In this document: positions 10,016 to 52,276 of the stretch, piece by piece
Position numbering within the stretch: the stretch's first letter is position 1
How the letters are laid out: each line of letters starts with the position of its first letter
Source: Fusobacterium mortiferum
GTDB taxonomy: Bacteria > Fusobacteriota > Fusobacteriia > Fusobacteriales > Fusobacteriaceae
Length of the DNA: 64,000 nucleotides
Assembly (NCBI RefSeq): GCF_016900045.1
Contig: NZ_JACSNP010000003.1
Location: forward strand, 1-64,000
Direction of reading: 5' to 3'
The notes under the pieces: model-generated
What the model was told of the DNA's origin: nothing
The model's database searches: none
Seen by the model: the letters and a program-made list of their open reading frames with translations, nothing else
Position numbers and translations under genes: made by a program

Positions 10016-11269
10016 TTATCTATATAATACTCCGATATCTTTTCTGAAATATTTCTTTTCAAAATTTACTTGTTCAGCATCATAATAAGCTTTAGCTCTA
10101 GCTTCTTCGAGAGTATCTCCTAGTGCTACCACATTGATTACCCTTCCTCCATTTGTAAGAAGTTTTCCGTTTTCAATTTTAGCTCCCGCTACAAACACCA
10201 TATTTTCTACCTTATCCATTCCAGTTATCTCATAGCCTTTATTGTATTTTTCAGGGTATCCCCCAGATGCAAGCACCACACAACAAGCTGATTTATTACT
10301 CCACTTTACCTCAATAGTAGAAAGTTTCTTATCTATTCCATTCTCTAATAAAGTTATGAAATCTGATTCTAACAGTGGTAAGACAACTTGTGTTTCTGGA
10401 TCTCCCAATCTCATATTGTATTCAAGTAGATAAACTCCCTTTGAAGTTATCATAAGTCCAAAGAAGATAAATCCAGCAAAATCCATTCCTTCAGCTTTTA
10501 TTCCTTCAAGAGTAGGATTCATTATCTCAGTTATAAATTTATCATAAACCTCTTTGGTTACATAAGGATTTGGAGCAATTGTTCCCATTCCACCAGTGTT
10601 AAGTCCTGTTTCCTTTTCCCCTATCTTCTTATGGTCCTTAGCTGAAATAAAAGGAAGTATAGTATTAGAATCTGTTACTGATAAGATAGAAGCTTCCACT
10701 CCATCTAAGAACTCTTCAACTACTATTTGCTCTCCAGCACTATTAAAAACTTTATCAATCATTATCTCATCTACAGCTTTTAATGCCTCTTCAAGATTTT
10801 GACAAATAAGAACTCCCTTTCCAGCAGCAAGTCCACTAGCTTTTACTACCAATGGAAAATCACAATTTTTTATATACTCTTTAGCTTTATCAGCTTCATT
10901 GAACACTTCATAAGTTGCTGTTTTTACTCCATATTTTTTCATAAAATCTTTGGCAAAAGCTTTTGATCCTTCAAGTAATGCAGCTTTTCTATCTGGTCCA
11001 AAAATTCTTAACCCTTCAGCTTGAAATTTATCAACTATACCATCTACTAAAAGCTCTTCACTTCCAACAATAGTTAAATCTATATTTTTTTCTTTAGCAA
11101 AATTAAGAATTTCATCTACACCATTTAGATTTACATTCTCTCCCTTTTCAAGTAGTTCTGTTCCTCCATTTCCAGGAGCACAATAAACTTTTTCTACCTT
11201 CTCATTTTGACTTACTTTCCAACAGATAGTATGCTCTCTTCCACCGCTTCCAACTACTAATATTTTCAT
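10016..11269 (-). CDS. purD: phosphoribosylamine-glycine ligase
   Basis: GAR synthetase, 417 residues, the usual PurD length. It joins glycine to 5-phosphoribosylamine with ATP, the second step of purine synthesis. The N-terminal MKILVVGSGGREHTI, the ATP-grasp segment VKASGLAAGKGV, the GGMGTIAP motif and the metal-binding RLGDPETQ are all present. It is the last gene of the operon, 95 bases after purH and followed by the operon terminator. Confidence 0.97.
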   Translation of the reverse strand: MKILVVGSGGREHTICWKVSQNEKVEKVYCAPGNGGTELLEKGENVNLNGVDEILNFAKEKNIDLTIVGSEELLVDGIVDKFQAEGLRIFGPDRKAALLEGSKAFAKDFMKKYGVKTATYEVFNEADKAKEYIKNCDFPLVVKASGLAAGKGVLICQNLEEALKAVDEIMIDKVFNSAGEQIVVEEFLDGVEASILSVTDSNTILPFISAKDHKKIGEKETGLNTGGMGTIAPNPYVTKEVYDKFITEIMNPTLEGIKAEGMDFAGFIFFGLMITSKGVYLLEYNMRLGDPETQVVLPLLESDFITLLENGIDKKLSTIEVKWSNKSACCVVLASGGYPEKYNKGYEITGMDKVENMVFVAGAKIENGKLLTNGGRVINVVALGDTLEEARAKAYYDAEQVNFEKKYFRKDIGVLYR

Positions 11270-11364
11270 TCTCTCTTCTCCTTATAGATTGATCAACTAC
11301 AAAATTTAACTAAGAAAACTCAAAGAATTTTAATTTCTTTTTAATTTTTTAATAATTTTGCAAA

Positions 11365-12867
11365 TTAGTGTTTGAAATGTCTCATTCCACTGAATATCAT
11401 AGCTATTCCATGCTCATTACAAGCCTCTATAGATTCTTTATCTCTAATAGAACCTCCAGGTTGAATTATAGCTTTAATTCCATGTTTTGCACAAGTATCC
11501 ACTACATCTCTAAATGGGAAGAAAGCATCAGAAGCAAGTATCGCTCCCTCTATTCTATCTCCAGCTCTCTCTATTGCCTGTTCAGTAGGCCAAATTCTAT
11601 TTGTTTCTCCATTTCCTATTCCGATAGCCATCTTATCCTTAGCCACCACAATAGCATTCGATTTAACATGTTTTACTATTCTCATTCCAAAATCTAGATC
11701 ACTCATTTCAGCTTCAGTTGGTGATTTCTCTGTAACAGTTTCATAATTAGTCGAAAAACTTAAATCTTCATCTTGAACTAAAATTCCACCATCTACTTTC
11801 ACAAGATTTACTCTATCCATTGGCTTATGATTACATTTGATTACTCTTAAATTTTTCTTAGTTCTTAATACTTCTAAAGCTTCTTCAGTAAAACTTGGAG
11901 CTATAACTATTTCTAAGAATATTTTTACTAGCTCTTCAGCTGTTGCTCTATCAACCTCTTTATTAAGTGCTACTATTCCACCAAAAATAGATACAGGATC
12001 ACACTCATAAGCTTTTACATAAGCTTCGTGAATATTTTTCCCAATTGCTGCTCCACATGGAGTAGAGTGTTTTACTCCACAACAAGCTGGTTCTTCAAAT
12101 TCACAAACAACTTTCCAAGCTACATCCATATCTCTTATATTATTAAATGATAGCTCTTTTCCATTTAATTGTTCAAAATCTTTCATAGCCCCATTATCAG
12201 TAGTAGAAACATAATAAGCTGCTTTTTGATGTGGATTCTCTCCATATCTTAAATCCATTACTTTTTCGTAAGAAGCATTTAAATAGTGTGGCATCTCATC
12301 TCCTAGTAAAAAATTAGATATAGCTGCATCATAAGCTGATGTTAAGTTAAAAACTTTTCCAGCAAGTCTTTTTCTAGTTTCAAAACTTACCTCTCCAGCT
12401 TCCATCTCTTTCATAACCGTTTCATAATCAACCGTGTCACTTATTACTACTACATCTTTAAAAGATTTAGCTGCTGATCTTAACATTGTAGGTCCACCAA
12501 TATCTATAAATTCAACTTTTTCTTCAAAAGTTAAATCCTCGTTTACCTTCTTAAAAAATGGATATAGATTTACAACTACCATATCAATAGTTTCTATTCC
12601 TCTCTCTTTTATAGTAGCCATATGTTCTTCATTATCTCTTATAGCTAAAATTCCCCCATGTATTACTGGATGTAAAGTTTTTACTCTTCCATCTAACATC
12701 TCTGGAGCTTTTGTAAGCTCAGCTACCTCTATTACAGGAACATTATTTTCTTTTAAATATCTATAAGTTCCTCCTGTTGATATTATTTCAATACCTTTTT
12801 TTACTAAGAATTGTGCAAATTCTAATATTCCATTTTTATCGAAAACTGATATTAATGCTCTTTTCAT
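11365..12867 (-). CDS. purH: bifunctional AICAR formyltransferase / IMP cyclohydrolase
   Basis: The 500-residue PurH catalyses the last two steps to IMP. The N-terminal methylglyoxal-synthase-like cyclohydrolase domain ([31 protein letters not shown]) is followed by the transformylase domain with the LRYGENPHQ motif near residue 207 and the KHSTPCGAA motif near residue 265. The C-terminus ends in MRHFKH, the usual IMP synthase ending. It uses 10-formyl-tetrahydrofolate, which the fhs product at the head of this same operon makes. Confidence 0.97.
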
Positions 12868-12882
12868 TGTATATAGACTCCT

Positions 12883-13461
12883 TTATTTTCTCTTTAAAAT
12901 GATCTTTGCAATAGATTCTGGTAATAGTTTATGTTCCTCTACTAAAACTCTTTTTTGTAATACTTCTGGAGTATCTCCTTCTAAAACTGCTACCTTTTTT
13001 TGAGCAATTATCTCTCCACTATCTACTCCAGTATCTACATAATGAACTGTACAACCACTCTCTTTTTCACCAGCATTTAACACTGCCTCATGTACCTTTA
13101 TTCCATACATTCCAGGTCCTCCAAATTTTGGAAGAAGAGATGGATGAATATTGATTATTTTTTCCTTCCATTTATTGACAAACTCTTCATCAATAATAGA
13201 CAAAAATCCAGCTAAAACTATTAAATCAACATCCTTCTCTGTCACTATTTTATCTATTGCTCTACACAGCTCTTTTTTTAGAACCTTTCTATCTAAGATA
13301 TATCCATCTATTCCAGCTTTTTTAGCTCTCTCTACTCCATAACACTCTCTATCTCCAATTACAACTTCAACTTTACATTGTAACTCTCCACTTTGAGATT
13401 TATCAATTATTGATTGTAGATTGCTTCCTCCACCAGATACTAAAACTCCTATCTTAAACAT
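12883..13461 (-). CDS. purN: phosphoribosylglycinamide formyltransferase
   Basis: Folate-dependent GAR transformylase of 192 residues. The GAR phosphate-binding SGGGSNLQ segment near the N-terminus, the catalytic INIHPSLLP (Asn, His) and the downstream Asp in VDTGVDSGEII are visible. Its ATG lies inside the end of purM (13-base overlap), and it stops 15 bases before purH. Formate-dependent PurT is not in the operon, consistent with reliance on fhs-made formyl-folate. Confidence 0.96.
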   Translation of the reverse strand: MFKIGVLVSGGGSNLQSIIDKSQSGELQCKVEVVIGDRECYGVERAKKAGIDGYILDRKVLKKELCRAIDKIVTEKDVDLIVLAGFLSIIDEEFVNKWKEKIINIHPSLLPKFGGPGMYGIKVHEAVLNAGEKESGCTVHYVDTGVDSGEIIAQKKVAVLEGDTPEVLQKRVLVEEHKLLPESIAKIILKRK

Positions 13462-14450
13462 AGTCCCTTATCTCCCTTTTGAACATATCCTATTTCAAAA
13501 GCTTCTTCTCCATGTTTTGCAAGCTCTTCTATCACTCCATCTTTATCTTTAGGATCTACTACTAATACAAATCCTACTCCCATATTAAAGGTTCCATACA
13601 TCTCCTCTTCAGAGATATCTCCCTCTTTTTGGATATATTTGAAAATATCTAATACTCTTAATTTCTCTTTTAATACTACTGGTTGATATCCTTCACTTAT
13701 TGTTCTTGGTAGATTTTCTGGTAATCCCCCTCCAGTTATATGTGCCATACCTTTTACATTGTATTTCTCTAATACTGCAAGAACTGGTTTTACATATATT
13801 TTTGTAGGAGTAAGAAGTGTCTCACTTATTGGTTTTCCATTATATTCTTTAGAATAATCAGTTATTACTTTTCTCACTAACGAAAATCCATTACTATGTA
13901 TCCCAGAAGATGGAATAGCTATTAAAACATCTCCTTCTGATGTTGTACTTCCATTTACAATTTCGGATTTTTCAACAACCCCAACACAGAACCCAGCTAT
14001 ATCATAATCTCCAACTTTATAAAAACCAGGCATTTCAGCTGTTTCTCCCCCTATAAGTGCAGCTCCAGCTTGATAACACCCCTCGGCTACTCCAGAAACT
14101 AATTCAGCAGCTACTTCTGCATCTAACTTTCCACAAGCTAAGTAATCTAAAAAGAATATTGGCTTTGCCCCATGACATAGCACATCATTTACACACATAG
14201 CTACTGCATCTATCCCAACAGTACCATATTTTTTAGTAGTAAGAGCTACTTCTAACTTTGTTCCTACTCCATCAGTTCCAGAAACCAATACAGGATTTTC
14301 ATACTTTCCTAACTCATACATAGCTCCAAAGCTTCCTAATCCATTTAGTACATTATTATTCATTGTCTTAGCAACTGCTTTTTTCATAAGCTCTACTGCT
14401 CTGTATCCTTCCTCTTTATCTACTCCTGCTTCTTTATATGAAATTGCCAT
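13449..14450 (-). CDS. purM: phosphoribosylformylglycinamidine cyclo-ligase
   Basis: AIR synthetase, 333 residues from the ATG at 14450, preferred because TTTTGGAGGAAAA precedes it; a longer reading from 14462 would start on the ribosome site itself. PurM signatures visible: the SGTDGVGTK loop near residue 60, CVNDVLCHGAKP near residue 90 and GGGLPENLPR near residue 245. It closes the imidazole ring of FGAM with ATP. It is placed after purF and overlaps purN. Confidence 0.96.
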   Translation of the reverse strand: MAISYKEAGVDKEEGYRAVELMKKAVAKTMNNNVLNGLGSFGAMYELGKYENPVLVSGTDGVGTKLEVALTTKKYGTVGIDAVAMCVNDVLCHGAKPIFFLDYLACGKLDAEVAAELVSGVAEGCYQAGAALIGGETAEMPGFYKVGDYDIAGFCVGVVEKSEIVNGSTTSEGDVLIAIPSSGIHSNGFSLVRKVITDYSKEYNGKPISETLLTPTKIYVKPVLAVLEKYNVKGMAHITGGGLPENLPRTISEGYQPVVLKEKLRVLDIFKYIQKEGDISEEEMYGTFNMGVGFVLVVDPKDKDGVIEELAKHGEEAFEIGYVQKGDKGLCLR

Positions 14451-14489
14451 TTTTTCCTCCAAAATTGAAATTATTTTTTAATAACTTTT

Positions 14490-15890
14490 TTACTCTTCTG
14501 TTGGTGTATCTACTGGATACTCACCATTAAAACATCCTACACAATAATTGCAACCCTTTAAGGATTTTAACATATTTTCCATTGTTAAATAATCAAGTGT
14601 ATCTGCATTTATCTCTTTTCTTATCTCTTCTACTGATAATCTAGAAGCTATTAATTCCTCTCTATGAGCTGTATCTATTCCAAAATAACAAGAGTGTTTA
14701 ACAGCTGGAGAAGCTGAACGAAAATGTACTTCCTTAGCTCCTGCCTTTCTAATTATCTCTATTAAAATCTTACTCGTTGTTCCTCTTACTAGAGAGTCAT
14801 CAATAATTACTACTCTTTTTCCCTCTAAGTTTACCTTTAATGGATTTAATTTTACCATTACAGCTTGCTCTCTAAGAGCTTGGGTAGGCTTTATAAATGT
14901 CCTTCCTATATACTTATTTTTTACAAGTCCTATTGCATAGGGTATTCCACTTGCTTCAGCAAATCCAATAGCTGCTGGAACTCCGGAGTCTGGAACTCCT
15001 ATTACAACATCTGCCTCCACCTTCATTTGTTTAGCTAATAATCTTCCAGCCTCTACTCTAGATTCATACACATTTAATCCATCTATTATACTATCAGGTC
15101 TAGCAAAGTATATATGTTCAAAAGAGCATGGGGCTTTTTTATTGTTCTCAGAGTATTTTATAGATTTTACTCCATTTTCATCTATTATTACCATTTCTCC
15201 AGGAAGTATATCTCTAATTAAAGTTCCACCTACAGCATCTATAGCACATGATTCTGAAGCTAATATGTAGTCTCCATTTTCATTTATTCCCAAGCAAAGA
15301 GGTCTTATTCCATATGGATCTCTAACTCCAACTAATTTATTTCCTGCTAATATCACCAGAGCATAAGCTCCTTTAATAGCTCCTACTGTACTTCTTATAG
15401 CATCTTCTACATTTCCATTTGCCTTTCTAGCTATCATTTTTATAATAACTTCTGAGTCTATAGTAGTATTAAATGTTGATCCTCCATCTTCTAATAACTC
15501 TCTTATTATCTTGGCATTTGTTAAATTTCCATTATGAGCTACTGCTATTTGCCCCAATTTGTATCTACTCTCAAGAGGTTGAGCATTCTCTAATTTACTT
15601 GCTCCAGTTGTAGAGTATCTAACATGTCCTATAGCAGCATTTCCCACAAGATTTTCCAATGTTTTTGAAGTAAAAACATCAGCAGTAAGTCCCATTCCCT
15701 TATATGTAACTATCTCACCAAAGTTGGAAACAGATATTCCTGCACTCTCTTGACCTCTATGTTGAAGAGCATATAATCCATAGTAAGTTATCTGTGCTAC
15801 TTCACTTCTATCCTTTGAATATATTCCAAATACTCCACACTCCTCTTCCATTTTATCTCTAGCCATTAGAATTTCTGTGCAGTTCATCAT
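14490..15890 (-). CDS. purF: amidophosphoribosyltransferase
   Basis: First committed enzyme of purine synthesis, 466 residues. An N-terminal propeptide of about 18 residues precedes the nucleophile in EECGVFGI. The PRPP-binding motif VVIIDDSLVRGTT is near residue 355. The C-terminal GCNYCVGCFNGEYP, together with Cys residues in KAPCSFEH and KHSCYFG, matches the oxygen-sensitive [4Fe-4S] type of PurF known from Bacillus rather than the cluster-free enterobacterial type. The ATG shares a base with the purC stop (TAATG). Confidence 0.96.
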   Translation of the reverse strand: MMNCTEILMARDKMEEECGVFGIYSKDRSEVAQITYYGLYALQHRGQESAGISVSNFGEIVTYKGMGLTADVFTSKTLENLVGNAAIGHVRYSTTGASKLENAQPLESRYKLGQIAVAHNGNLTNAKIIRELLEDGGSTFNTTIDSEVIIKMIARKANGNVEDAIRSTVGAIKGAYALVILAGNKLVGVRDPYGIRPLCLGINENGDYILASESCAIDAVGGTLIRDILPGEMVIIDENGVKSIKYSENNKKAPCSFEHIYFARPDSIIDGLNVYESRVEAGRLLAKQMKVEADVVIGVPDSGVPAAIGFAEASGIPYAIGLVKNKYIGRTFIKPTQALREQAVMVKLNPLKVNLEGKRVVIIDDSLVRGTTSKILIEIIRKAGAKEVHFRSASPAVKHSCYFGIDTAHREELIASRLSVEEIRKEINADTLDYLTMENMLKSLKGCNYCVGCFNGEYPVDTPTEE

Positions 15891-16603
15891 TAAGCCCCCA
15901 ATCTCTTTAATACTTCTATATAAGCCTCTTCTATTCCTCCAAGATCTCTTCTAAATCTATCTTTATCTAGCTTTTTACCAGTTTCCTTATCCCATAATCT
16001 ACATGTATCAGGAGTTATTTCATCAGCTAACAATATCTCTCCTTTTGAATTTTTTCCAAACTCTATTTTGAAATCTACTAGAGTTATTCCAATTTTATCA
16101 AAAGCATCTTTTAATAGGTTATTAATTTGTCCAGTTATTCTATAAATTTCAGCTAATTCCTCATAAGTACAAAGTCCTAAGGCCACTGCGTGGTGATCAT
16201 TAATTAACGGATCTCCATAGGCATCATTTTTATAACATATTTCAAATATTGTATTTGATGGTTTAGTTCCTTCTGGAATCCCTACTCTTGCTGCCATAGA
16301 TCCAGCTATTACATTTCTTACTATTACTTCTAATGGGAATATTTTTACTTTTTGACAAAGTTGATCTCTATCATTTAAAACATCAACTAAGTGAGTCTTT
16401 ATTCCATTCTTTTCTAACATTTTAAATAGCATCGCAGTTATCTTATTATTTAAGATTCCTTTATTTTCTATTGTACCTTTTTTAGCTCCATTTCCTGCAG
16501 TAGCATCATCTTTATAGTGGATTATTACTAAATTTTCATCTGTTGTTGAATATACTTGTTTAGCTTTACCTTCATAAATAAAATCTTTTCTTTCTACTGA
16601 CAT
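15890..16603 (-). CDS. purC: SAICAR synthetase
   Basis: A 237-residue phosphoribosylaminoimidazole-succinocarboxamide synthase. Motifs: [11 protein letters not shown] at the N-terminus, the conserved [11 protein letters not shown] near residue 93, LVDFKIEFG near residue 178 and [13 protein letters not shown] near residue 195. It condenses CAIR with aspartate. It sits between purE (69-base gap) and purF (one-base overlap). Confidence 0.97.
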
Positions 16604-16672
16604 CTTAACTCCTCCTGAGATACTTTTAATATTTTTTATAACTTATTTTTACTATTTTTATTAAACTTAATT

Positions 16673-17152
16673 TTATAGCTCTACTCCACCTTCGTTATCT
16701 GCTATAAATTTGGCTTTCATCTCTTTTCTATACTCTCTTAATTTCTCTTTTAATTCCGGTGATTTTAGTGCTAACATCTGAACAGCTAACATACCTGCAT
16801 TATATGAGTTATTTACCCCTACAGTTGCTACTGGTATTGATTTAGGCATCTGTACTATTGATAATAATGCATCCATTCCATCAAAAGCCGCTTCAATAGG
16901 TACTCCTATAACTGGTAGTGTAGTTTTTGAAGCAATAACCCCAGGGAGATGAGCCGCAAGCCCAGCTCCTGCTATTATTACCTCATATCCCTCTATCTCC
17001 AATAACTCTAGTGTCTCCTCTAATTTTTCAGGTACTCTATGAGCTGAAAGTATATGAGCTGAATACTCTATCCCAAATTCCTTTAAACAGTTTGCAGCAC
17101 CTCTCATCTTCTCTGTATCTGATTTACTTCCGAAAATAATAGCTACTTTCAT
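16673..17152 (-). CDS. purE: N5-carboxyaminoimidazole ribonucleotide mutase
   Basis: A 159-residue PurE. The N-terminal FGSKSDTEKM, SAHRVPE and AGLAAHLPGV motifs look like class I, which normally uses N5-CAIR made by PurK. No purK is present in this otherwise near-complete operon, so either purK lies elsewhere or high CO2 substitutes for it. It lies 8 bases after the purL stop. Confidence 0.95.
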   Translation of the reverse strand: MKVAIIFGSKSDTEKMRGAANCLKEFGIEYSAHILSAHRVPEKLEETLELLEIEGYEVIIAGAGLAAHLPGVIASKTTLPVIGVPIEAAFDGMDALLSIVQMPKSIPVATVGVNNSYNAGMLAVQMLALKSPELKEKLREYRKEMKAKFIADNEGGVEL

Positions 17153-17160
17153 AATTCCTC

Positions 17161-20100
17161 CTATTTAAAATATTTTACTCCATTTTCAAATATTTTTTGC
17201 TCCTTATTCCCAATTATATTTTTATATACATTATTACCGATTCTCTCTGTATGTCCCATTTTACCAAATACTCTTCCATCTGGTGATGTTATTCCTTCTA
17301 TAGCAAAGCTTGATCCATTTGGATTAAATCTAAATTCATTTGTTGGCTCTCCCTCAAAGTTTACATATTGAGTTGCTACCTGTCCATTCTCAAACAGCTT
17401 TTTAATTACTTCATCACTTGCAAAGAATCTTCCTTCCCCATGTGATACAGCTATTTCAAACTCTGATCCTACATCTATTCCTGCAAGCCAAGGTGATTTA
17501 TTTGAAGTAACTTTTGTTTTTACCATTTGAGAGATATGTCTTCCTATTTTATTGAATGTAAGAGTTGGAGAATTCTCAGTTATTTTACCAATTTCTCCAT
17601 ATGGTAATAATCCTGATTTTATTAAAGCTTGGAATCCATTACATATTCCTAAGATAAGTCCATCTCTCTCTAAAAATTTATGAATTGCTTCTGCTACCTT
17701 TGGATTTGTAAGTACCGTTGCTATAAATTTACCAGAACCATCTGGTTCATCTCCAGCACTAAATCCACCTGGAAACATAAGAATTTGTGAGTTATTGATC
17801 TCTTTTACCATTTTTTCAATAGAGTCATTTATATACTCTTGAGTTAAGTTTCTAAATACCAGTATATTTGATTCCGCTCCAGCTTTTTCAAATACCTTAG
17901 CTGAATCATATTCACAGTTTGTTCCTGGAAAAGCTGGTACTAAAACTCTTGGTTTAGCTACTTTATTTTTACAAACTACAATCTCTTTCTTTTCATATGG
18001 TGTCCAAATATATTTTTCTACCTTTTCCACTGTTTTATGTGGGAATACTGGGAATAACTTATCTAACCATACCCTTTCACCAGTACTCATATCTATCTCT
18101 ACTTCTCCAACAATAATCTTATATTCAGATATTGTCTCCCCTATTAATTCAATATTATTACCAGTAAGTTCAACTGAAGATTCAATTATAAAGCTACCAT
18201 ATCCTAATTTAAATAGTTCGTTTCCAAGATCTTTTATTTTAGCTCCTACTCTATTTCCTAATGTCATCTTACTTACAGCTTCAGCTATTCCTCCATGTTT
18301 TAATGTCATAGCTGATAATATATTTCCTTTAATTATATTTTCATGTAAATATTCAAAATTCATTTTCAATTCATCTACATTAGGCATATAGTTCTCTAGC
18401 ATATGATGTTTTAATAAATAGATTTTATTTCCTGATTTTTTAAATTCAGGTGATATAACTACACTAGCTTTTACTGGTGCTACAGCAAATGAGATCAATG
18501 TAGGTGGTACGTGTATATCATTAAATGTTCCACTCATCGAATCTTTTCCACCTATGGCTGGAATTTCAAAAGCTCTTTGCATCTCTATTGTTCCTAATAA
18601 AGCTGAGAAAGGTTTTCCCCAATTTATAGGATTTTGTCCTAATTTTTGGAAGTACTCTTGGAATGACAATCTTATTTTTTTATAATCAACTCCAACACTC
18701 ACTAACTTTGCTAAGGATTCAACCACTGCATAAGCTCCTCCGTGAAATTGAGACCATGATGATAAAACCGGATTATATCCCCATGTGATTGCAGATGCTG
18801 TGTCTGTCTCTCCATTGATCAATGGAATTTTTTGTACACTTACATCTGTTGGAGTCATTTGATATTTTCCTCCAAATGGCATAAGTACAGTTGTTGCTCC
18901 TATTGTAGAGTCAAACATCTCCATAAGTCCTTTTTGTGAGGCTACATTTAGTGAAGATAGCATGTTATACCATCTTTCTTCTAAAGTTTTTCCATCATAT
19001 TCTATATTTACAAGTGGACTTTCTTCATAATTTATATTTTCTACTTCTACCTCACTCTCTTGAGTAACTCCATTAGTATCTAAAAACTCCCTTGAGATAT
19101 CAACTATCTTTTTACCTTTCCAATTTAATACTAATCTATTTGTATCAGTAACTACTGCCACCACAGTTGCTTCTAAGTTCTCTCTATTTGCTAAATCTAT
19201 AAACTTATCTCTATCTTTTGCTTCTATCACCACTGCCATTCTCTCTTGCGATTCAGAGATAGCAAGTTCTGTTCCACTCAATCCTAGATATTTTGTTGGA
19301 ACTACATCTAGATTTATATCTAGCCCTGGAGCTAATTCTCCTATTGCTACTGATACACCCCCAGCTCCAAAATCATTACATTTTTTTATAAGTTTTGTAA
19401 CCTCTGGATTTCTAAATAGCCTTTGTATTTTTCTTTCCTCTGGTGCATTTCCCTTTTGAACCTCTGCTCCACAAAGTCTTAAAGAATCATCAGTATGCTC
19501 CTTTGATGAACCAGTTGCTCCACCACAACCATCTCTTCCCGTTTTTCCACCTAAAAGTACAACTATATCTCCTGTTGAAGCACTTTCTCTTCTTACCCAA
19601 TCAGCAGGTACTGCTCCTACAACAGCTCCTACCTCCATTCTTTTTGCTTTATATCCATCATGGTATATCTCAGCTACATGCCCAGTAGTAAGACCTATCT
19701 GATTTCCATATGCAGAGTATCCAGCCGCTGCTCCAGTAGTTATTTTCTTTTGTGGTAGTTTTCCTTGAAGAGTATCTTCTAACTTCTCTAATGGATTTCC
19801 AGATCCTGTCACTCTAATAGCTTGGTAAACATATGCTCTTCCAGATAGTGGATCTCTTATTGCTCCCCCTAAACATGTTGAAGCACCACCAAAAGGTTCT
19901 ATCTCTGTCGGATGATTATGAGTTTCATTTTTAAACATCAATAACCATTTTTCAATTTTCCCATCTACATCTACATCTATGTACACTGAACAAGCATTTA
20001 TCTCATCTGATACTTCTAAATCATTTAATTTTCCTGTTTTTCTCATCTCTTTACCACAGATTGTCGCCATATCCATTAAAGAGATATATTTTTTTTCTAC

Positions 20101-20889
20101 TTTTTCTTGATGAACAAATTTTCTAGCTTCTAAATAATTCTCAAAAGCTTTTTGTAAAGTATCTCCAAATTCTGATTTTGGAAAAATTATATTTTTTATT
20201 TTAGTTTCAAAAGTTGTATGTCTACAATGGTCAGACCAATATGTATCTAAAACTTTTATCTCTGTTTCAGTTGGATCTCTTCTTTCCGTATTTTTAAAAT
20301 ACTCTTGAACAAAGGCTATATCTGCAAATGTCATTGCAAGCCCTAACTCTTTTCTAAAATTTTCCAATTCTGCAGCTTTATATCCTATAAACCCATTATA
20401 TACTGGTACCTCTTGAGCTTGTTCTCCACTCTCTATTTCTAATTTTTCAAGAGATTTTTCTCTCATCTCAACTGGGTTAATGTAGTATTTTTTTACTCTT
20501 TCTAAATCTTCTGTAGAGATATTTCCTTCAAGAATTATAACTCTTCCACTTGTTACTACAGTTTCTTGATTTTTATCAGATATTAAATTTAAACATTGCA
20601 TAGCTGAATCAGCTCTTTGATCAAATTGACCTGGTAAAAACTCTATAGCAAAGTATTTTGCTCCTTTATTATCTAATTTTTCAGTTACTATATCTGTTAC
20701 TACTTCAGAAAATATCAATTTCTTAGCTTTTTCTAGCTCTAAACTATCTATTTTAAAGATATCATAACAATTTAGTAATCTTACTTTTTCAAGTCCCTTT
20801 AATTGAAGGCTCTCTTTTAATTCATTTTCAAGTCTTTTGGCTTCTAAGTCAAATCCTGGTCTCTTCTCTACAAAAATACGGTAATTCAT
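17161..20889 (-). CDS. purL: phosphoribosylformylglycinamidine synthase, large single-chain form
   Basis: At 1242 residues this is the fused FGAM synthase that combines PurS-like, PurL synthetase and PurQ glutaminase functions. The synthetase part shows the HNHPTEIEPFGGAST segment and GGKDSMSGTF; the C-terminal amidotransferase domain begins near residue 980 (VLVPAFPGTNCEYD) with the nucleophile in LGICNGFQAL and the His/Glu of AVSHGEGRF. It uses glutamine and ATP. Second gene of the operon, 37 bases after fhs. Confidence 0.97.
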   Translation of the reverse strand: MNYRIFVEKRPGFDLEAKRLENELKESLQLKGLEKVRLLNCYDIFKIDSLELEKAKKLIFSEVVTDIVTEKLDNKGAKYFAIEFLPGQFDQRADSAMQCLNLISDKNQETVVTSGRVIILEGNISTEDLERVKKYYINPVEMREKSLEKLEIESGEQAQEVPVYNGFIGYKAAELENFRKELGLAMTFADIAFVQEYFKNTERRDPTETEIKVLDTYWSDHCRHTTFETKIKNIIFPKSEFGDTLQKAFENYLEARKFVHQEKVEKKYISLMDMATICGKEMRKTGKLNDLEVSDEINACSVYIDVDVDGKIEKWLLMFKNETHNHPTEIEPFGGASTCLGGAIRDPLSGRAYVYQAIRVTGSGNPLEKLEDTLQGKLPQKKITTGAAAGYSAYGNQIGLTTGHVAEIYHDGYKAKRMEVGAVVGAVPADWVRRESASTGDIVVLLGGKTGRDGCGGATGSSKEHTDDSLRLCGAEVQKGNAPEERKIQRLFRNPEVTKLIKKCNDFGAGGVSVAIGELAPGLDINLDVVPTKYLGLSGTELAISESQERMAVVIEAKDRDKFIDLANRENLEATVVAVVTDTNRLVLNWKGKKIVDISREFLDTNGVTQESEVEVENINYEESPLVNIEYDGKTLEERWYNMLSSLNVASQKGLMEMFDSTIGATTVLMPFGGKYQMTPTDVSVQKIPLINGETDTASAITWGYNPVLSSWSQFHGGAYAVVESLAKLVSVGVDYKKIRLSFQEYFQKLGQNPINWGKPFSALLGTIEMQRAFEIPAIGGKDSMSGTFNDIHVPPTLISFAVAPVKASVVISPEFKKSGNKIYLLKHHMLENYMPNVDELKMNFEYLHENIIKGNILSAMTLKHGGIAEAVSKMTLGNRVGAKIKDLGNELFKLGYGSFIIESSVELTGNNIELIGETISEYKIIVGEVEIDMSTGERVWLDKLFPVFPHKTVEKVEKYIWTPYEKKEIVVCKNKVAKPRVLVPAFPGTNCEYDSAKVFEKAGAESNILVFRNLTQEYINDSIEKMVKEINNSQILMFPGGFSAGDEPDGSGKFIATVLTNPKVAEAIHKFLERDGLILGICNGFQALIKSGLLPYGEIGKITENSPTLTFNKIGRHISQMVKTKVTSNKSPWLAGIDVGSEFEIAVSHGEGRFFASDEVIKKLFENGQVATQYVNFEGEPTNEFRFNPNGSSFAIEGITSPDGRVFGKMGHTERIGNNVYKNIIGNKEQKIFENGVKYFK

Positions 20890-20926: not shown

Positions 20927-22591
20927 CTAGAATAATCCCTCTATTTTTCCATTTTCATCTATATCTATCAATTCTGCAGCTGGCTTTTTAGGTAATCCTG
21001 GCATATCTATTATATCTCCTGCCATTGCCACTATAAATCCTGCTCCTGCTGATATTCTCAACTCATTAATTGTTACTGTGAATCCTGTAGGTCTTCCTAT
21101 TAATGCAGCATTGTCTGAAAGAGATTTTTGAGTTTTAGACATACAAACTGGTAAATCTCCATAACCTAGCTCATCTATTGTTTTTAACATTTTTTTAGCT
21201 CCAGTGCTAAATTCCACTCCATCAGCACCGTAGATCTCTTTTGCTATTATCTCTATTTTATCTTTTATACTTAATTCTAATGGATAAAGTGGTTTATAAT
21301 CATCTATTTCTCTTTCTAACTGAGTAATTACTTCCTTAGCAAGAGAAATTCCACCTTCTCCTCCCTTTGCCCATACCTCACATAATGCTACTGGTACATC
21401 TAATTTTTTACAATGTTTTTCTATAAATTCAAGTTCTTTCTCTGTATCACTTACAAACCTATTAATTGCTACTACAACTGGTAAATTATACTTCTTCATA
21501 TTTTCTATATGCTTATCTAAATTTGCTATTCCTTTTTCTAAAGCTTCTACATTCTCTTCTGAAAGCTCCTTTGCTCCTCCGTGATGTTTCAAAGCTCTTA
21601 CTGTAGCTACTATTACCACACAGTTAGGTTTTAGATTTCCTTTTCTACACTTTATATCTAAAAATTTCTCTGCTCCTAGATCAGCGGCAAATCCAGCTTC
21701 TGTAATAGCGTAATCTGAAAGTTTTAAAGCTAATTTTGTAGCTAATATTGAGTTACAACCGTGAGCTATATTAGCAAATGGTCCTCCATGAATAAATACA
21801 GGAGTATTTTCTAAAGTTTGAACAAGGTTTGGTTTTAATGCTTCTTTCAACAGTGCTGTTACAGCTCCCTCTATTTTTAACTCCCCAACTGTTAAAGCTT
21901 TTCCATCTTTCGAATACCCAAATACCATATTTCTAATCTTATCTTTTAAATCCATCAATGAATTAGCTAAACATAGAACAGCCATTATCTCAGAAGCTAC
22001 TGTTATTTGGAAAGATGATTCTCTTGGAACACCATTTACCTTTCCACCAAGCCCTATAACAACCTCTCTTAAGGCTCTATCATTCATATCCACTACTCTT
22101 TTCCAAGATATCTTTGTAATATCTATATCTAAAGCATTTCCTGAGTTGATATGATTATCTATACAAGCAGCAATTAAATTATGTGCTACCCCTATAGCAT
22201 GTAAATCTCCAGTAAAATGTAAATTGATATCTTCCATTGGAATTACTTGAGCATATCCTCCACCAGTAGCTCCTCCTTTCATTCCAAATACAGGTCCAAG
22301 TGAAGGCTCTCTCAAAGCAGCTATAGAGGATTTTCCTAATTTATTTAGTGCTTGAGTAAGTCCTACTGTTACTGTAGATTTCCCTTCTCCTGCTGGAGTT
22401 GGAGTAATTGCAGTTACTAATACTAATTTCCCATCTTTTCTATTTTCAAGTTTTTTTAATACATCTAAATTAACCTTTGCCTTATACTTACCATACTGCT
22501 CTATATCATCTTCAGTAAGTCCTACTTTTTTTGCTATCTCTATAATATTTTCTATTTTTGCCTCTTGAGCTATTTGAATATCAGTTTTCAC
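20927..22591 (-). CDS. fhs: formate-tetrahydrofolate ligase
   Basis: A 554-residue 10-formyl-THF synthetase. The ATP-binding loop [16 protein letters not shown] is near residue 65, and the family segments [14 protein letters not shown] and [15 protein letters not shown] are intact. The enzyme makes 10-formyl-tetrahydrofolate from formate, the one-carbon donor of PurN and PurH encoded downstream, which explains its place at the head of the purine operon. GTG/ATG context: AGGAGG lies just upstream of the ATG. Confidence 0.97.
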
Positions 22592-22615: not shown

Positions 22616-22669
22616 AAAACAAAAGGTCTAAACATATACTGATGCTCTGCATTAGTATACACTTAGACC
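22616..22669 (-). terminator. intrinsic terminator/attenuator before fhs
   Basis: On the minus strand GGTCTAA and an 11-base helix pair with their partners around a 3-base loop with one 3x3 internal loop, ending TTAGACC followed by TTTTGTTTT. It lies between the leader ORF and fhs. The last six codons of that ORF form the 5' arm of the stem, so ribosome occupancy and terminator formation exclude each other. Confidence 0.85.
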
Positions 22670-22768
22670 ATTTCTTATACATATTTTTAAGTTTACAACT
22701 ATGCCTTTGTTAGAAATTGATTTTAAACTATTTTTCAGTTTTTTTCTCTTTTCATTAACAAATAACAT
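22652..22768 (-). CDS. 38-residue leader peptide ORF in the purine operon leader
   Basis: Starts with ATG six bases after a near-perfect Shine-Dalgarno (GGGAGG, 22775-22780) and encodes MLFVNEKRKKLKNS followed by a moderately hydrophobic tail ending NGLSVY. No homology is recognised. The stop codon TAA lies at the tip of the downstream terminator stem. Upstream, TTTTCCTC (22803-22810) can pair with GAGGAAGA over its Shine-Dalgarno, so its translation could depend on the folding state of the aptamer just before it. Coding status is inferred from the ribosome site and layout. Confidence 0.55.
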   Translation of the reverse strand: MLFVNEKRKKLKNSLKSISNKGIVVNLKICIRNGLSVY

Positions 22769-22838
22769 ACTCTTCCTCCCTAACAATATCATACATACCA
22801 AAGAGGAAAATAATAGTCATACAACTATTATCTTTAAA

Positions 22839-22903
22839 CTCATAGCGGTTTTTTACAGTGGTAAACCCTAGAAACTCCTCACCATATTTGAGGTATATAT
22901 GAG
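22839..22903 (-). ncRNA. purine-riboswitch-like aptamer (guanine-type variant) upstream of fhs-pur
   Basis: P1 is CTCATA/TATGAG. P2 is CCTCA/TGAGG with loop AATATGG, close to the canonical L2. J2/3 reads GTTTCTAG, matching the purine riboswitch core except that the last base is G rather than C. P3 is GGTTT/AAACC with a loop containing CC for the L2-L3 contact, longer than usual. J3/1 reads GCT, keeping the pyrimidine (C) that specifies guanine-type ligands but with G for the usual A before it. Its location at the start of the purine operon supports the call; the deviations may alter the ligand. Confidence 0.8.
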
Positions 22904-22925
22904 ATATTTTTTCTTTCATATGTTA

Positions 22926-22954
22926 AGAATATCATATTTTTTGTTTTTTGTCAA
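22926..22954 (-). promoter_or_regulatory. promoter of the fhs-pur operon
   Basis: Consensus -35 TTGACA (22949-22954) and -10 TATTCT (22926-22931) with 17-bp spacing on the minus strand. The expected transcription start is about 15 bases before the aptamer. Confidence 0.8.
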
Positions 22955-52066: not shown

Positions 52067-52103
52067 AATTACAAAAAAGATAAAATAATCCCTCTCTTAT
52101 TCT

Positions 52104-52276
52104 CACAGATAGCTCTCCACTGAAAAAATTCAATGACAACAATGTAGATATTATCCACATTGCCAACAAAAGAGTTTAGCCCTCTCTTCCATTTCGGCAA
52201 ATTCCCCTTTCAAAATATCATAACGCCTGCCAAGCTATATATTTTTACTCCTGTCATTTGCTCCTCTACCTTGCTT
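52104..52276 (-). ncRNA. lysine riboswitch (L box)
   Basis: On the minus strand the conserved elements appear in order: P1 strand AAGGTAG with GAGGAGC, the AGGAGTA turn, GGC followed by GAAAGGGGAATTTGCCGAA (the most diagnostic block), TTGGCAATG, then CAGTGGAGAGCTATCT, which closes P1. The length of about 170 bases matches the five-helix lysine aptamer. A promoter lies just upstream and an intrinsic terminator just downstream, so high lysine should stop transcription of spmA-spmB-dacB-ldcA. Confidence 0.93.

Follow-up and report, generated by a model that had tools for sequence, protein, structure and literature searches.

A guanine-type riboswitch leader in Fusobacteriota whose signal may reach the terminator through translation of a short open reading frame

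The leader of the fhs-pur operon of Fusobacterium mortiferum places a short open reading frame (ORF) between a purine aptamer and an intrinsic terminator, which raises the question of how a signal from the aptamer could reach that terminator. The window analyzed here is the whole stretch of 64,000 nucleotides that holds the leader and its operon (Table 1). The answer that we consider likely is a two-step relay controlling the fhs-pur operon, in which the riboswitch would gate translation of the leader ORF and the translating ribosome would in turn gate the terminator. The evidence for it comes entirely from sequence comparison and computation.

Anatomy of the leader

The presumed operon opens with fhs and continues with purL and seven further purine genes; fhs and purL were named from NCBIfam model matches, and purE to purD from reading of their translations. 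Upstream of fhs, an earlier note on this DNA had described a consensus promoter, a purine-riboswitch-like fold, a short ORF with a strong ribosome site, an anti-Shine-Dalgarno (anti-SD) able to mask that site, and a terminator whose 5' arm consists of the last codons of the ORF, and all of these elements were borne out. The promoter (TTGACA-17-TATTCT, with a TG before the -10) has 10/12 matches to the pattern and lies in the same place in relatives; the number of pattern matches is at chance level (4 found vs 4.2 expected), and the scan for promoter and terminator patterns by count was set aside as uninformative. The leader Shine-Dalgarno (SD), GGAGG, lies 6 nt before the ATG of the ORF, which runs from 22768 to 22652, and the last six codons (GGT CTA AGT GTA TAC TAA) sit inside the 5' arm of the terminator. 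A simple terminator scan, built on a narrow consensus, missed this stem despite a fold far better than that of shuffled sequences (0/200 as low as -19.9 kcal/mol).

The aptamer scores above the cut-off of the purine riboswitch family RF00167 (46.9 against 37 bits), as a low-scoring copy beside the 53-67 bits of its relatives; its L3 is longer, and a G replaces the C at the base of P3. In the cmscan alignment, read by eye, J2/3 retains GUUUCUA and J3/1 retains its C-U, and because this core is intact the window aptamer reads as guanine type, with guanine as the predicted ligand. The ligand contacts in purine riboswitches are U22, U51 and C74, and the xanthine-II and guanine-II types differ at U51 or have nucleotides inserted in J2/3 or J3/1 (PMC9295807). 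The window aptamer carries neither their U51 change nor such insertions, and an altered ligand class of these types was rejected.

Other riboswitches are present as well. The window holds a lysine riboswitch, and elsewhere in the same genome there is one ZTP riboswitch (L251) and a second purine riboswitch (L001, C239:126166-126265), which stands before an apparent purine permease gene without the ORF-stem unit.

Table 1. Positions in the window of the leader elements, the operon genes and a second riboswitch.
Feature	Position	Strand	Basis or detail
purE, purC, purF, purM, purN, purH, purD, in this order; rest of the presumed operon	10016..17152	-	
purL, phosphoribosylformylglycinamidine synthase	17161..20889	-	TIGR01857, 1971 bits
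fhs, formate-tetrahydrofolate ligase, first operon gene	20927..22591	-	NCBIfam NF010030, 913 bits
Terminator T-tract TTTTGTTTT	22616..22624	-	sequence
Intrinsic terminator stem-loop	22625..22669	-	-19.9 kcal/mol, z -6.1; 5' arm 22649-22669
Leader ORF, 38 codons, MLFVNEKRKKLKNSLKSISNKGIVVNLKICIRNGLSVY	22652..22768	-	stop TAA 22652-22654
Leader ORF Shine-Dalgarno GGAGG	22775..22779	-	sequence; SD in 12/12 genus genomes
Segment pairing with the P1 3' strand region (proposed ON) or, via the anti-SD, with the leader SD (proposed OFF)	22790..22816	-	energy model
Anti-Shine-Dalgarno UUUUCCUC	22803..22810	-	sequence; hairpin with SD z -3.2
Purine (guanine-type) riboswitch aptamer, RF00167	22823..22922	-	46.9 bits, cut-off 37
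P1 3' strand UAUGAG	22839..22844	-	pairs with CUCAUA 22898-22903 in the aptamer fold
Promoter -10 TATTCT, TG upstream	22926..22931	-	pattern scan; relatives
Promoter -35 TTGACA	22949..22954	-	pattern scan; same position in genus relatives
Lysine riboswitch	52102-52276	-	117 bits

Conservation of the ORF and of the terminator stem

A DNA search found the leader in 12/12 genomes of the genus with aptamer, SD, ORF and terminator all kept, and in each of them an SD and a short ORF lie between the aptamer and fhs, the stop falling within either the 5' arm or the loop of the terminator. The earlier note had made its reading depend on conservation of the ORF frame and its ribosome site; these 12 genomes all retain the SD, the start codon and an open frame ending in the terminator. 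The note had also pointed to a comparison of the leader in related genomes, which now extends the ORF-terminator arrangement to other genera and to a second family. This wider survey covered the regions upstream of fhs in the other genera of the family and employed a covariance model of the stem. The arrangement precedes fhs in another five genera (g8, g9, g12, g13, g14); in the other family it is found with a guanine aptamer before fhs in two genomes (L159, L160) and with an aptamer before purL in a third (L164). An aptamer recognized by Rfam precedes the unit in L026, L007, L024, L014, L013, L010, L094, L093, L090, L098, L159 and L164.

At 35/40 loci an SD-preceded ORF has its end between -4 and +36 nt relative to the stem mark, where dinucleotide-shuffled upstream regions give an expectation of 0.8; the loci are related rather than independent and, by gene and genus, represent roughly a dozen lineages. 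Among the five misses, L143 is cut by a contig end, L105 and L163 have an ORF whose SD does not fit the search pattern, and L097 and L099 combine a weak SD with the absence of an aptamer. In L098 and L103 the stop codon lies immediately ahead of the stem. In L098 (G056, related to G053 and G058) the aptamer ends almost directly at the leader SD. A different kind of leader is seen in genus g5 of the same family, where the region before fhs resembles, by eye, a ZTP (pfl) riboswitch (L067, L071-L074, L077, L078); this ZTP-like leader would take the place of both the purine switch and the ORF.

The stem itself covaries across genera: 94.9% of cells are paired and 14 cells are changed on both sides, with 0/500 shuffles as high on either measure. 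Its sequence (YCTAAGTRTAYACTT / AAGTRTATACTTAGR) is also kept across unrelated genes and genera (window 22625-22669, L088, L092-L105, L143-L167), a degree of conservation that exceeds what a terminator needs and that could reflect either recognition by a binding factor or common descent. An ordinary genome repeat was rejected, the only model matches in its own genome being the fhs copy and its reverse complement. The loci L161, L162, L165, L166 and L168-L170, which are weak model matches, were set aside by eye; they resemble plain gene-end or mobile-element terminators and are without the SD-ORF. Similar stems end apparent mobile elements in L162 and L165. A search of named genomes by the Fhs protein, which returned mostly Firmicutes, led to an Ilyobacter MAG locus (L172) that carries the stem.

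From aptamer to terminator

In the proposed relay, P1 would form when guanine is bound and leave the anti-SD free to pair with the leader SD; with its SD masked, the leader ORF would go untranslated, the terminator would form and transcription would stop before fhs. When guanine is absent, the P1 3' strand would pair with the anti-SD segment and the SD would be free, and a ribosome trailing RNA polymerase to the stop in the 5' arm would block the stem, such that the operon would be transcribed. The ribosome footprint is of established size and would cover the terminator 5' arm. The act of translation would be the signal and the peptide would be dispensable; a relay of this kind would account for the conservation of SDs and of the stop position alongside changing peptides and frames.

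The predicted OFF hairpin is well supported in the window clade (G000-G005). In the window, the anti-SD TTTTCCTC and the SD form a hairpin of -12.9 kcal/mol (z -3.2), and hairpins of 12-16 pairs with z of -2.0 to -5.1 are found in 6/6 genomes of the clade. Its predicted coupling to P1 in this clade is moderately supported by energy modeling. When P1 is forced, the computed cost of opening the SD rises by 0.3 to 5.1 kcal/mol in 6/6 window-clade genomes, and it also rises in L159 and L160 of the other family. The anti-SD segment of G001 can pair with the P1 3' strand (UAUGAGUUGAAGGA with UCCUUUAGUAUAUA) at 13/14 positions by eye; taken by itself, the ON pairing of the window clade, computed on hand-picked segments, is equalled by 6 to 20% of shuffles, and the ON-state calculation leaves out SD pairing partly by construction. 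Forcing P1 in G006-G011 and in other genera shifts SD access little or the wrong way in the energy model. A different, analogous alternative pairing can be drawn for G006-G011 (GGUGAAGUA with UACUUCAUC), and in 5/6 of these genomes <=1/300 shuffles are as good. The product of the fhs-pur operon is IMP, and repression by guanine is the sign expected from established purine biology. From the SD-access energies and this sense of the pathway, we infer that guanine would switch the operon OFF.

A classical transcriptional purine riboswitch would act through a direct antiterminator and the ORF would be incidental, and the sister guaA and guaB purine switches work in this way by sequence: in L149, L151, L152, L153 and L167 the same kind of stem follows right after the purine aptamer without an ORF, at 27-36 nt from P1. 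Duplex energies were computed for the 5' arm of the terminator against a segment starting at the P1 3' strand. Most of these ORF-less leaders pair strongly, at -18.0, -17.0 and -16.6 kcal/mol in three of them (0/200 shuffles), with p of 0.00 for guaB L149, guaA L152 and L153, 0.03 for L167 and 0.09 for L151. In the ORF-type leaders, by contrast, P1 and stem are 158-213 nt apart and the pairing of the aptamer-side segment with the 5' arm is at chance in 16/16 (p 0.12-0.98), with p 0.70 for direct antiterminator complementarity in the window leader. A direct antiterminator was therefore rejected for the ORF-type leaders, in which the aptamer seems to be without a direct hold on the terminator. 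The overall MFE fold of the leader does contain long-range pairs; pairing of the ORF itself with the terminator arm was not beyond chance except in one case (p 0.02, 16 tests). Against these chance-level pairings, and with an SD-led ORF ending in the stem kept in two families while its peptides change, a classical switch with an incidental ORF is very improbable. Since no direct link is visible and the SD and ORF lie in between, leader translation is the most likely path of the signal; this is the route that the earlier note had proposed, and it gains support from the 16/16 leaders without a direct link and from the conservation of ORF and SD.

An ORF that is translated could also matter for what it encodes, or for how its ribosome keeps pace with the polymerase. 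On the former reading it would be a functional small protein under riboswitch control, its overlap with the terminator being only compact packing. Mycobacterium tuberculosis has a riboswitch-controlled conserved small ORF (PMC12810186), and within clades the frame of the leader ORF is kept with a pooled pN/pS below 1 (0.50 and 0.63 in two subclades), which is a weak constraint, as would be expected if translation and not the peptide matters. The peptide of G000-G005 has 30-42 residues, starts with MLF and enters the stem as ..GLSV, whereas that of G006-G011 has 27-29 residues, starts with MLS and ends with GTC-TAA (TAG in one) at the start of the stem, in a different frame. Between subclades and genera the peptides, from 16 to 51 residues long, are unrelated, while their ORFs retain the overlap with the stem; with stops in differing frames and peptides unrelated, it is the position of the stop that appears to be conserved. 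Two leader peptides tested in a model search had no family match, and a known small protein was rejected for these two. Taken together, these observations leave a small-protein function highly unlikely. Attenuation by an amino acid was ruled out, as no run of one amino acid's codons is common to 22 leader peptides, and this same result favors the latter reading, in which the ORF-terminator mainly senses RNA polymerase speed as set by purine nucleotide supply, in the manner of pyrBI, and the riboswitch is a second input, or none where the aptamer is weak or lost. It is in keeping with such a sensor that the unit stands without an aptamer before hpt in three genomes (L154, L155, L163), before a FAD-dependent dehydrogenase gene (L143-L148, L150) and before fhs in G049, G050, G043, G053 and G058; in an Rfam scan, L088, L097, L105, L144, L147, L150, L154 and L163 had no purine aptamer ahead of the unit, and the remaining aptamer-less loci were judged by eye alone. 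The stretch before the stem, however, shows no consistent purine enrichment over coding sequence (0.47-0.75 vs 0.52-0.59), and we regard polymerase speed as an unlikely main signal.

Because the ORF-terminator unit also stands without an aptamer, it is probably an attenuator of its own, a stand-alone device onto which the riboswitch is coupled. In L097 and L099 (G053, G058) the ORF and terminator remain before fhs and the aptamer is absent, and the FAD-dependent dehydrogenase (MKYDIIFVGGGQASVFG...) carries the unit in three genera. More tentatively, Fusobacteriota may possess a modular attenuator, consisting of an SD-led ORF that ends in a sequence-conserved stem, used either alone, ahead of purine and other genes, or under a guanine riboswitch that gates initiation, with the ribosome relaying to the terminator; the stem may also be read by a factor.

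Relation to known systems

If the two-step relay is correct, the output of this purine riboswitch would be translation of a leader ORF and its terminator would be worked by the ribosome, placing two textbook mechanisms in series. The ORF-less sister leaders, with the same type of stem in the same family, would then provide a natural experiment on how a direct link and a ribosome relay substitute for one another, and the locus would be a test bed for transcription-translation coupling, which has been little studied in this phylum. It would also serve as a warning that short ORFs beside riboswitches can belong to the switch. Both halves are known, namely the purine riboswitch and the ribosome-controlled terminator of pyrBI; in the literature searched, from which most subscription journals were absent, we found neither a riboswitch-gated leader ORF that overlaps an intrinsic terminator nor any previous description of a relay of this kind for purine riboswitches, which is not proof of novelty.

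In the pyrBI attenuator of Escherichia coli, the terminator cannot form when a ribosome follows closely on RNA polymerase, and UTP is sensed via polymerase pausing. The window leader shares with it a leader ORF that runs into an intrinsic terminator ahead of a nucleotide synthesis operon, and the end of the ORF in the 5' arm fits this anatomy; pyrBI, however, is without an aptamer, whereas the start of leader translation here appears to be riboswitch-gated. The amino-acid leader-peptide attenuators of the trp and ilv types also have a leader ORF that overlaps the attenuator, but they stall the ribosome at codons, while the leaders described here share no regulatory codon run and their gate appears to be on initiation. 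With other RF00167 purine riboswitches it has in common the aptamer fold, the guanine-type core and the promoter-proximal site before purine genes; the members known so far regulate either a terminator or the SD that belongs to the structural gene, whereas the SD that would be masked here is that of the leader ORF and the terminator is at the end of that ORF. Riboswitches combined with small upstream ORFs (uORFs) have been described in M. tuberculosis, in the Mg-responsive pe20 Mbox-uORF (PMC12810186) and in B12 riboswitch-uORF leaders (PMC11260477). As proposed here, a riboswitch anti-SD controls the small uORF in these leaders, or the operon depends on uORF translation. They differ in ligand and phylum, and they employ Rho-dependent termination or termination-reinitiation, whereas the fusobacterial leader uses an intrinsic terminator that overlaps the end of its ORF.
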